DNA of 64,000 nucleotides, taken from assembly GCA_000565255.1 (NCBI GenBank), contig ASRH01000002.1:186001-250000 (forward strand), given 5' to 3'. A program made the translations under genes and the position numbers. Positions 46,813 to 50,664 of the stretch are shown here, piece after piece (position 1 is the first letter of the stretch; each line of letters opens with the position of its first letter). Source of the DNA: Candidatus Aramenus sulfurataquae (GTDB lineage: Archaea; Thermoproteota; Thermoprotei_A; Sulfolobales; Sulfolobaceae). Under the pieces are notes generated by a model, which ran no database searches, was not told where the DNA came from, and was given only the letters and a program-made list of their open reading frames with translations.

Positions 46813-47118
46813 CATTGAGACGAAGCTCTTTATTGCGTTAACCAAGGACTTCACTAGCCTGTTCACTATGGCCTTATACGCGAATATTATCAAGTACCTT
46901 ATTCTTATTGTAAGGAGGAGTTCCTTTGCTATCTTCTCCTGCCTCTCAATAATTGCCCTTAAGTTACCGGACACGTAGGCTTTTATGTCCCTAATGAAGG
47001 TGAGGAAGTCCCTTACGGCTACCCTTATCTCCAATATACTGTTGGAGGAAAGTATCCTTTCGTACTCCTCGTACTTGCTCCTGAGGAGTGATGCGTTAAT
47101 TATATCATCAAAATACAT
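46801..47118 (-). CDS. Small all-helical hypothetical protein
   Basis: This protein of ~105 residues contains coiled-coil-like helices (LRSKYEEYERILSS, AIIERQEKIAKELLL) and a long amphipathic end (NRLVKSLVNAIKSFVSMLTA) that could sit on a membrane. The frame is open back to ATG 47145, but a TTTATGATA box (about 47140-47149) overlaps that codon and lies 22-31 bp before ATG 47118, so the shorter form is preferred. Function is unknown. Confidence 0.55.
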   Translation of the reverse strand: MYFDDIINASLLRSKYEEYERILSSNSILEIRVAVRDFLTFIRDIKAYVSGNLRAIIERQEKIAKELLLTIRIRYLIIFAYKAIVNRLVKSLVNAIKSFVSMLTA

Positions 47119-47119
47119 G

Positions 47120-47125
47120 TTATAT
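47120..47125 (+). promoter_or_regulatory. TATA box for the plus-strand guide RNA
   Basis: TTATAT lies about 25 bp before the expected 5' end of the C/D box RNA at 47147. It lies beside the palindrome CTCTTGAGAG (47126-47135), which separates it from the divergent gene's TATA. Confidence 0.5.
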
Positions 47126-47146
47126 CTCTTGAGAGGTATTATCATA

Positions 47147-47212
47147 AAAGGGTGATGAGTTTTCGGGGAGTGAAAGCCGGTGATCGGCTTTCAGCGGGCT
47201 GATCCCCCTTTA
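47147..47212 (+). ncRNA. C/D box guide RNA, both guides matching 23S rRNA
   Basis: C box GTGATGA (47152-47158), 12-nt guide GTTTTCGGGGAG, weak D' box TGAA (47171-47174), 5-nt spacer, degenerate C' box GTGATCG (47180-47186), 12-nt guide GCTTTCAGCGGG and D box CTGA (47199-47202). Flanking AAAGG and CCTTT can close the ends. The guides complement CUCCCCGAAAAC and CCCGCUGAAAGC; the cores CUCCCCGAAA and GCUGAAAGC are, as I recall, conserved 23S rRNA segments. Part of the RNA could also fold as a 9-bp hairpin (TGAAAGCCG with CGGCTTTCA). Confidence 0.75.
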
Positions 47213-48300: not shown

Positions 48301-49104
48301 ATGGAAGTGCTAGTATCTGCTGGTACTTTCTTTTTTCTCAAAAAGGGGATAAAATACAGCGACACTGCGTACGCCCTCCAAACAGGGGGGTGTAAGGCGA
48401 AGTGCGCTTTTTGTACGCAGTCCTCCGTTAGCAGGGCAGACAAGGCCTACCTTTCAAGGGTTAAGTGGTACCCAGTAAAAGTAGAGGACGTAAAGGAAAA
48501 GCTCTCCTCGTTTAAGCGCTTCTGCCTTCAGACCGTTGTGAAGGATGGCTTCGAGGAGGAGGCGTTGGACATCTTGGGGCAAGTTAACACCAGGAAGTCC
48601 GTCACTACCACACCCGTGGAAGAGAGGTACTTATGGGAGATGAAGGAAGTAGGAGTGGACTACCTGGGAGTTGGGATGGACACCACGAGGGGGAACTGGG
48701 AGAAGGTGGGAAAGCCCTACTCCTTCGAGAGGTACCTTGAGTTCGTCAAGAGGGCGGTGGAGGTCTTTGGAAAGAGGAAAGTCTACGTTCACTTAGTCTT
48801 CGGCCTAGGGGAGGAGAAGGGGGAGTTCGTGGAGCTGATGAAGGAGCTCTACTCTCTGGGGGCGGAGGTAGCGCTCTTTGCCTTCACCCCCGTGAAGGGA
48901 ACGCCAATGGAGGACCACCCAAGGCCACCTCTTGAGGAGTACAGAGAGATGCAGAGGATAAGGTTTGCCCTCTCAACTGGGGCTAATCCAAGCGAGAAGG
49001 CCTACTTCACTTCTGGCTGTCCCTCCTGTGATAGGCCCTTCTACAACGAGGACCCCAGGGAGAAGCCCTACAACATACCCCTAATGGAGGCGAGAAGGCT
49101 ATGA
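48301..49104 (+). CDS. Radical SAM lipoyl synthase component (LipS1/LipS2 type)
   Basis: This 267-residue radical SAM enzyme has cluster motif CKAKCAFC (Cys31, Cys35, Cys38), YLGVGMDTTRGNWEKVG in the barrel and a late FTSGCPSCDRPF Cys pair. By sequence it looks biotin-synthase-like, but its place in a four-gene set with a second radical SAM protein and both parts of a split lipoate ligase identifies it as one half of the LipS1/LipS2 pair, which together insert sulfur into protein-bound octanoate. I cannot say which half it is. Its stop overlaps the next ATG by 4 bp. Confidence 0.78.
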   Translation: MEVLVSAGTFFFLKKGIKYSDTAYALQTGGCKAKCAFCTQSSVSRADKAYLSRVKWYPVKVEDVKEKLSSFKRFCLQTVVKDGFEEEALDILGQVNTRKSVTTTPVEERYLWEMKEVGVDYLGVGMDTTRGNWEKVGKPYSFERYLEFVKRAVEVFGKRKVYVHLVFGLGEEKGEFVELMKELYSLGAEVALFAFTPVKGTPMEDHPRPPLEEYREMQRIRFALSTGANPSEKAYFTSGCPSCDRPFYNEDPREKPYNIPLMEARRL

Positions 49105-49958
49105 TAGGGGGGTTTGTGATAGACAGGAAATTCTCAGTCCTAAGCCTCACTGGAGGTTCGTGTTCCCTGAACTGCTTCTACTGCTCTGCAAAGTACATAA
49201 AGTCTATGCTTTCAGCTCCTACCCCTGAGGAGCTCTACAAGGAGATCTCGAGGTTACACGCCAGAGGGGTCAAGGGATTCCTAGTGAGCGGGGGATTCAA
49301 CGAAAGGGGAGAGTTGCCCGTCAAGAAGTATTTACCCGTTATGAGAAAGGCTAAGAAGGAGATGGGAGTTATATTTAACGTCCACCCCGGCCTACTAGAC
49401 AGGGAAACAATAGAGGAGATGCGCGACGTAGTTGACATAGTGGATTACGAGTTCGCCTACTCCACGGGAGCCTACAAGTCGAAGGGAGTGAAGAGGCCTA
49501 GGGAGGACTACCTTAAGGTGTTGGAGGACTTGGTAGACTACGGCCCCAAGTACGTTGTCCCACACCTCATGTTGGGGCTGCCTAGCGACTCTGACGAGGA
49601 GTTGGAGGACGTGATAAGGCTCGTTGCCTCTTATAATCCCTACTTGATCAACTTCTTAGTGCTCATCCCTACGCCCGGCACTCCATCTAGGCTCTTGAAG
49701 CCAATGGACGTGGTAAGGGCATTAAGGCTCATAGAGCTCGGCCACGCGTTAACTGGGGGCAGGACTAGCTTAGGCTGTATGAGACCCTACCAAATCAAGG
49801 AGGAGTTAGACAGGGAGGTGGTTAAAAGGGGAATAGTGCAGAGGATAGCCAACCCTCACCACAAGGTAGTCAAGGAGTTCAACCTCCCCCTTTACGACGG
49901 TTGCTGTAGCCTACCGGAGGAGTACCTAGGTGAGTTCAAGTATGAGGCTGATAATTGA
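49101..49958 (+). CDS. Radical SAM lipoyl synthase component (partner of LipS1/LipS2 pair)
   Basis: This 285-residue radical SAM protein has cluster motif CSLNCFYC (Cys21, Cys25, Cys28) close to the N-terminus, VKGFLVSGGFNERGELP, PHLMLGLPSDSDEELEDVI, and a C-terminal YDGCCSLPEEY with two adjacent Cys. It is paired with the preceding radical SAM protein by a 4-bp overlap and with the lipoate ligase genes that follow. The two would jointly form lipoyl groups. Which is LipS1 and which LipS2 needs comparison with characterised Thermococcus proteins. Confidence 0.78.
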   Translation: MIGGFVIDRKFSVLSLTGGSCSLNCFYCSAKYIKSMLSAPTPEELYKEISRLHARGVKGFLVSGGFNERGELPVKKYLPVMRKAKKEMGVIFNVHPGLLDRETIEEMRDVVDIVDYEFAYSTGAYKSKGVKRPREDYLKVLEDLVDYGPKYVVPHLMLGLPSDSDEELEDVIRLVASYNPYLINFLVLIPTPGTPSRLLKPMDVVRALRLIELGHALTGGRTSLGCMRPYQIKEELDREVVKRGIVQRIANPHHKVVKEFNLPLYDGCCSLPEEYLGEFKYEADN

Positions 49959-50664
49959 GGGAGGAAACCCTGGAGAGAGGCAGATGGCGTTAGACGAGGC
50001 TATGTTAATCTTAGCTAGCCACAACTTGGTGGAGGAGACAGTGAGGCTCTGGAACTTCTCGCCAACGACGCTTACCATAGGTAGGTTTTTGGCTGTGAGG
50101 GACTGGGTAAATGAGGAGGAGAGGGAAAAGCTAGGGATACCGCTAATAAGGAGGTTCACAGGGGGAGGGCCTGCGCTCCACGACGAGAAGGGAGAGGTAA
50201 CGTGGAGCGTGTTGATGAAGGGCGTTGACGTCGTTGAGGCCTACAGGAGGATTGGCTCAGCCCTAGTTAAGGCCATAGAGCTTCTGGGGCTCAAGGCCGA
50301 GTTCTCCCCGATCAACGACGTGACAGTGATGGGCAAAAAGGTAGTTGGAATGGCAGGGGCAAAGAAGAGGGACGCAGTCCTAGTCCACGGCACCTTTATG
50401 TTCTCCACCTACCTAGGTTACATGAAGGTGATAAAGTCCCCGGAGGCAAAGGTGAGGGAGAGGGGATCCCCAGAGGGAAGGGTGAGCAACCTGTCCGTTC
50501 TCCTGGGCAGTGAAATAAGTAGGAGAGAGGCAGTGGAGGCGTTAATAGAGGGGTTTTCGAGCGCGTTCGAGCTAAGGGACGGGGAGCTAACGGAACTAGA
50601 GGTGGAGCTGAGCTCTCAGCTAAAGTTTAAGTACACAAACGAGAGGTGGACTTACTTAAGATGA
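49942..50664 (+). CDS. lplA: Lipoate-protein ligase A, catalytic domain
   Basis: This 241-residue BPL/LplA-fold ligase attaches octanoate or lipoate to a carrier Lys using ATP. It has LIIEGGNPGERQMALDEAM, the lipoyl-AMP loop RRFTGGGPALHDEKGEVTW, and VMGKKVVGMAGAKK with the catalytic Lys region. It lacks the C-terminal accessory domain, which is encoded separately by the next gene. ATG 49942 is used; the in-frame GTG 49930 lies inside the preceding gene. The overlaps on both sides show a tight operon. Confidence 0.9.
   Translation: MRLIIEGGNPGERQMALDEAMLILASHNLVEETVRLWNFSPTTLTIGRFLAVRDWVNEEEREKLGIPLIRRFTGGGPALHDEKGEVTWSVLMKGVDVVEAYRRIGSALVKAIELLGLKAEFSPINDVTVMGKKVVGMAGAKKRDAVLVHGTFMFSTYLGYMKVIKSPEAKVRERGSPEGRVSNLSVLLGSEISRREAVEALIEGFSSAFELRDGELTELEVELSSQLKFKYTNERWTYLR

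Follow-up and report, generated by a model that had tools for sequence, protein, structure and literature searches.

The closest described relatives of the locus studied here are the archaeal C/D box sRNAs (Dennis et al. 2015, PMC4644070; Breuer et al. 2021, PMC7994747). Our locus resembles them in its C/D'/C'/D layout, in its 11-14-nt spacers, in carrying two rRNA guides whose targets lie within 100 nt, in its small intergenic or gene-overlapping location and in the presence of fibrillarin and Nop5 partner genes in the genome. It differs from them in the inner boxes, since the D'/C' of this genus contains a flipped G-C pair. The guide pair is not described in the main texts of the two studies; Pyrobaculum-like members may be found in their supplementary lists. 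Guides of this class are known to move: in Methanopyrus, sR24 and sR25 illustrate guide drift by indels, with a 3-nt shift between duplicates in one genome (PMC4644070). Among Rfam models the closest is sR11 (RF01150), which matches end to end with 24 bits and has its boxes in common with our sequence. Our sequence is not a member of sR11, however, as it falls short of the model's gathering score (39 bits) and neither of its guides is that of sR11. No Rfam model matches at its gathering threshold in the whole window (the 64-kb stretch of DNA that we analysed), and what we describe would be an additional guide RNA without a threshold match in that database.

We conclude, with a probability of roughly 0.93, that positions 47152-47202 on the plus strand hold a single-copy gene for a double-guide C/D box sRNA of about 51 nt from C to D (Table 1). 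Its assignment to this known class is well supported by sequence comparison. Boxes and guides follow each other as GTGATGA-GTTTTCGGGGA-GTGA-AAGCCG-GTGATCG-GCTTTCAGCGGG-CTGA. The C box (RUGAUGA) and the D box (CUGA) provide the terminal kink-turn of archaeal C/D box sRNAs, GTGA and GTGATCG provide the internal C'/D' kink-turn or k-loop, and complementarity to rRNA adjoins both D' (10 bp) and D (11 bp with one G-U). The terminal stem is weak (AAAGG/CCTTT) and separated from the boxes. Searched with a strict C/D descriptor, the window gives three matches, and 30 shuffled versions that preserve dinucleotides give none; of the three, the match at 47152-47202 has the best summed complementarity to the 16S and 23S rRNA of the same genome. 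Fibrillarin and Nop5 each have a single strong match in the genome, and the two genes are adjacent on contig C5. The initial annotation had proposed an independent double-guide C/D box RNA with spacings of 12 and 12 nt. The RNA itself stands, given that its boxes are present, that it matches the descriptor, that it is conserved in relatives and that its guides covary with 23S rRNA. The spacing of about 12 nt holds for C' to D (12 nt); from C to D' it is 11 nt when counted to the box of the kink-turn pair, and 12 nt only if D' is read as TGAA.

Table 1. Positions in the window of the sRNA, its boxes and guides, and the neighbouring elements
Feature	Positions	Strand	Basis or remark
Divergent small gene, 105 aa	46801-47118	-	homology; syntenic neighbour of this form of the sRNA, outside the RNA itself
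Possible sRNA TATA element TTATAT	47120-47125	+	27-32 nt upstream of the C box
Small-gene promoter element, GGTATTATC..TAAAAGG (minus strand: CCTTTTATGATAATACC)	47137-47151	-	conservation
C box GTGATGA	47152-47158	+	[AG]TGATGA in all aligned relatives
D' guide GUUUUCGGGGA (guide 1)	47159-47169	+	complementary to own 23S 2896-2905
D' box GTGA	47170-47173	+	G1 pairs with C6 of C'; alternative TGAA at 47171-47174
D'-C' loop AAGCCG, 6 nt	47174-47179	+	3-6 nt in relatives
C' box GTGATCG	47180-47186	+	aligned with relatives
D guide GCUUUCAGCGGG (guide 2)	47187-47198	+	complementary to own 23S 2868-2878
D box CTGA	47199-47202	+	invariant in aligned relatives

Kink-turns pair the first nucleotide of the D box with the sixth of the C box and set the second opposite the fifth. 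Among 39 distinct relatives, D'1-C'6 is a standard pair in 31, compared to 20.2 in shuffles, and D'2-C'5 is standard or U-U in 34, compared to 26.3; in neither case does any of 5000 shuffles, which take no account of shared ancestry, reach the observed count. The window carries G1-C6, that is, the canonical C-G pair flipped to G-C. Judged from its sequence, D'/C' is a compensated kink-turn pair that covaries across the 39 relatives, and not merely degenerate as first described. The flipped pair supports GTGA as the D' box, which leaves a C-D' spacer of 11 nt in the window, while most relatives have 13-14 nt. This matters for sRNA finders that require CUGA and RUGAUGA: boxes D' and C' that look degenerate can be a compensated pair.

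The 23S rRNA gene of this genome lies on a contig other than that of the sRNA. A comparison of the guides with this rRNA had been proposed, and both guides match. Guide 1 forms 10 contiguous Watson-Crick pairs with positions 2896-2905 (E. coli 2770-2779), its best match in the genome's own 23S rRNA. Taken alone, this match is not unusual, since 7-20% of shuffled guides reach the same score against the whole 23S rRNA. Hence, we base the assignment of the target on covariation and on the neighbourhood of the guide-2 site. In the 35 sRNA-carrying genomes for which 23S rRNA was available, changes in guide 1 are met by changes in the rRNA: the guide variant UUUUAGGGGA pairs with the 23S variant UCCCCUAAAA (G004, G007, G009, G023), UUUUCGGGGU pairs with ACCCCGAAAA (G063, G065) and GUCUCGGGGA pairs with UCCCCGAGAC (G275). 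The mean guide-1 score is 9.76 with the own 23S rRNA and 8.67 when partners are shuffled among genomes, a difference that none of 2000 shuffles reproduces; this statistic ignores shared ancestry, but changes in guide 1 and its target nevertheless occur in several separate lineages. In one genome (G013), guide 1 has a mismatch to the 23S copy that was found. Assigning a target through guide-target covariation over 35 genomes goes beyond what a single complementarity can offer.

One could also argue, as the initial annotation did, that guide 1 is directed at domain II near E. coli 815-825, because the E. coli 23S rRNA has CUCCCCGAAAGC at position 812. The genome's own rRNA reads CCUCCCGAAAUG there, a poorer match than 2896-2905 (the weaker own match near 815 is CCUCCCGAAAU). 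Moreover, the 815 region stays CCCGAAA in G007, even though guide 1 of that genome is UUUUAGGGGA. Sequence and covariation with the 2770 site rule out domain II as the target, and we give that placement almost no weight; the site is at about 2769-2779.

Guide 2 pairs with the genome's own 23S positions 2868-2878 (E. coli 2742-2752) through 10 Watson-Crick pairs and one G-U. An earlier placement near E. coli 2750-2760 was almost right: the match is strong and the site is at about 2741-2752. Counted from start to start, the guide-1 site is 28 nt downstream of the guide-2 site, and RNA folding shows that the two flank a single hairpin of domain VI, which we take to be helix 97 of the E. coli structure. 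The D guide, too, varies together with its target: GCGCUUACC pairs with the 23S variant GGUAAGCGC (G159), GCCCUUAUCC with GGAUAAGGGC (G420), GUGGUUACC with GGUAACCAC (G042) and CAGCGA with UCGCUG (G005).

In this genus only, guide 2 also pairs at 12 of 12 positions (one G-U) with the own 23S positions 2030-2041 (E. coli about 1893-1904). Hence, the D guide of this genus might mainly or additionally target domain IV, with C2034 of the own 23S as the predicted methylated nucleotide, and the RNA would then link domains IV and VI. The computed duplex energy favours the domain IV site (-30.9 kcal/mol, compared to -19.2 kcal/mol for the domain VI site). The comparison between genera speaks for domain VI. 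The domain IV site is mismatched in g5 and g8, both of which have the same guide (CCCACUGAAGG; CUCCGCUAAAG), so that pairing with domain IV would be at most a recent addition. The changed guide of G005 (GCGA) follows the domain VI sequence UCGC. Finally, the same domain IV sequence is present in g3, g9 and g11, which lack this guide; the match may therefore be a coincidence of similar rRNA sequences. We consider it rather unlikely that a single D guide serves two sites in this genus, the conserved one in domain VI and a long-range one in domain IV that a family-wide guide would have gained. If it did, the RNA could connect domains IV and VI with each other during assembly. Domain VI remains our preferred target for guide 2.

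The same comparisons bear on whether there is an RNA gene at all. The sRNA is intergenic: the minus-strand small gene lies on one side of it, and a plus-strand gene of the pyridine nucleotide-disulphide oxidoreductase family on the other. A location between divergent genes, together with the self-complementary CCGGUGAUCGG and GAAAGCC/GGCUUUC, would also suit a promoter or terminator region in which a C/D-like pattern and a hairpin occur by chance. Such a region would not explain why boxes and guides are conserved and their flanks are not, or why the same RNA appears in unrelated gene contexts elsewhere, and the compensatory changes with 23S rRNA refute it. We regard a chance pattern as extremely improbable, and continue with a guide RNA.

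From the biochemistry of the class, L7Ae, Nop5 and fibrillarin would be expected to assemble on the two kink-turns of the sRNA. The guides would then hold nascent 23S rRNA at two sites 28 nt apart, and fibrillarin would 2'-O-methylate the rRNA nucleotide opposite the fifth guide base, counted upstream from D and from D'. For the D guide this predicts Cm2871 (E. coli C2745), and the same in all carriers of this guide. For D', the GTGA box predicts Cm2900 (E. coli C2774) and the TGAA reading C2899. Going by the D' boxes of relatives, the site would be the equivalent of C2898 (E. coli C2772) in most of them and that of C2899 in some. With GTGA and its 11-nt spacer, the predicted D' methylation thus moves from the equivalent of C2898 to C2900. 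Pairing at both sites may also keep the domain VI hairpin open temporarily, a local chaperone role along the lines proposed for closely spaced double guides (PMC4644070).

The sRNA with both guides is also present in another genome of the same genus (G001; 92% identity over 161 nt) and in the genera g2, g5 and g8. A pattern that combines the C and D boxes with the core of guide 1 is found in 21 of the 31 genomes of the family and in 62 of 197 genomes of the order (a few of these being unrelated sequences), while a reversed control pattern gives very few matches. Guide 1 is kept in the relatives across the order, and a sequence model also finds relatives in another family, f19. Related RNAs are present in a second lineage of the phylum as well. 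Three genera of the family lack the sRNA; the sequence model detects nothing convincing in g3, g6 and g10. In a tree of 23S rRNA, g1 groups with g10 and g8 with g3, neither partner having the sRNA, but the deep nodes are weak.

Two forms can be told apart by the D guide. The widespread form has GCGGUUACCC, with predicted sites equivalent to E. coli about 2738-2739. The form in the window, shared by this genus and three others, has CUUUCAGCGGG, which is shifted 6-7 nt downstream on the rRNA. None of the genomes searched has both forms. Where it can be checked, in g1, g5 and g8, the window form lies divergently beside the same small gene. The small reading frame beside it in g2 could not be matched to that gene, and the widespread form has other neighbours. 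This makes the sRNA a clear case in which to ask how methylation guides are retargeted: guide 1 stays constant across much of the phylum, its partner slides by 6-7 nt and the gene changes its neighbourhood. As in Methanopyrus sR24 and sR25, one guide is constant, the other is shifted by a few nucleotides and the predicted methylation site has moved. Unlike in that pair, the shift is between lineages and larger, the neighbourhood has changed and the two forms do not meet in any genome found.

The 105-aa protein of the small gene has no Pfam match. Its homologues occur in 27 of the 31 genomes of the family, and their alignments begin at residues 2-5 of the 105-aa form, so the gene most likely starts at the ATG at 47118, and not at 47145. 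With homologues starting at 47118, an overlap of the sRNA with the divergent coding region is ruled out. The genera g3, g4, g6, g9 and g10 have retained the small gene in the absence of the sRNA.

This persistence matters for the promoter. The TATTAT at 47137-47142 had been annotated as the promoter of the sRNA, about 25 bp upstream. Its actual distance to the C box downstream is only about 10 nt, and genera without an adjoining sRNA retain a GTATTAT or GTAATAT with a TTAAA-like motif upstream of the small gene. Hence, GGTATTATC is best read as part of the promoter of the small gene. At about 29 nt from the ATG, the element would fit a leaderless archaeal promoter. A promoter of the sRNA's own is then only plausible. 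TTATAT is a plausible candidate, from which, at the usual distance of about 25 nt, transcription would begin about 5 nt ahead of the C box, and relatives linked to the small gene have AT-rich, TATA-like stretches 32-40 nt upstream of their C box. It stays no more than a candidate because the region is AT-rich anyway, also in genomes without the sRNA. In six archaea, TATA-like motifs were found upstream of only 20% of such sRNA genes (PMC7994747).

Upstream of the small gene, several g10 genomes (L122-L127) have two spaced GTGATAC or GTAATAC copies around its TATA-like motif, perhaps the site of a regulator. Further along the window, at 48301-50664 on the plus strand, two adjacent radical SAM genes are followed by a gene resembling a lipoate-protein ligase, possibly a lipoate-related cluster. 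The window also contains further tandem C/D-like sequences on the minus strand, at 40351-40303 and 40272-40225, about 30 nt apart (GTGATGAGCGATCATGCTCCTGAGCTGTGATGACTTCGCCAGCGTCTGA; ATGATGAGTTTGCCGAGTTTTGAAAGGTGAAATAGACAGTAGTTCTGA). The D' guide of the sequence at 40272-40225 matches the genome's own 23S rRNA at position 1832 in 10 of 10 positions.
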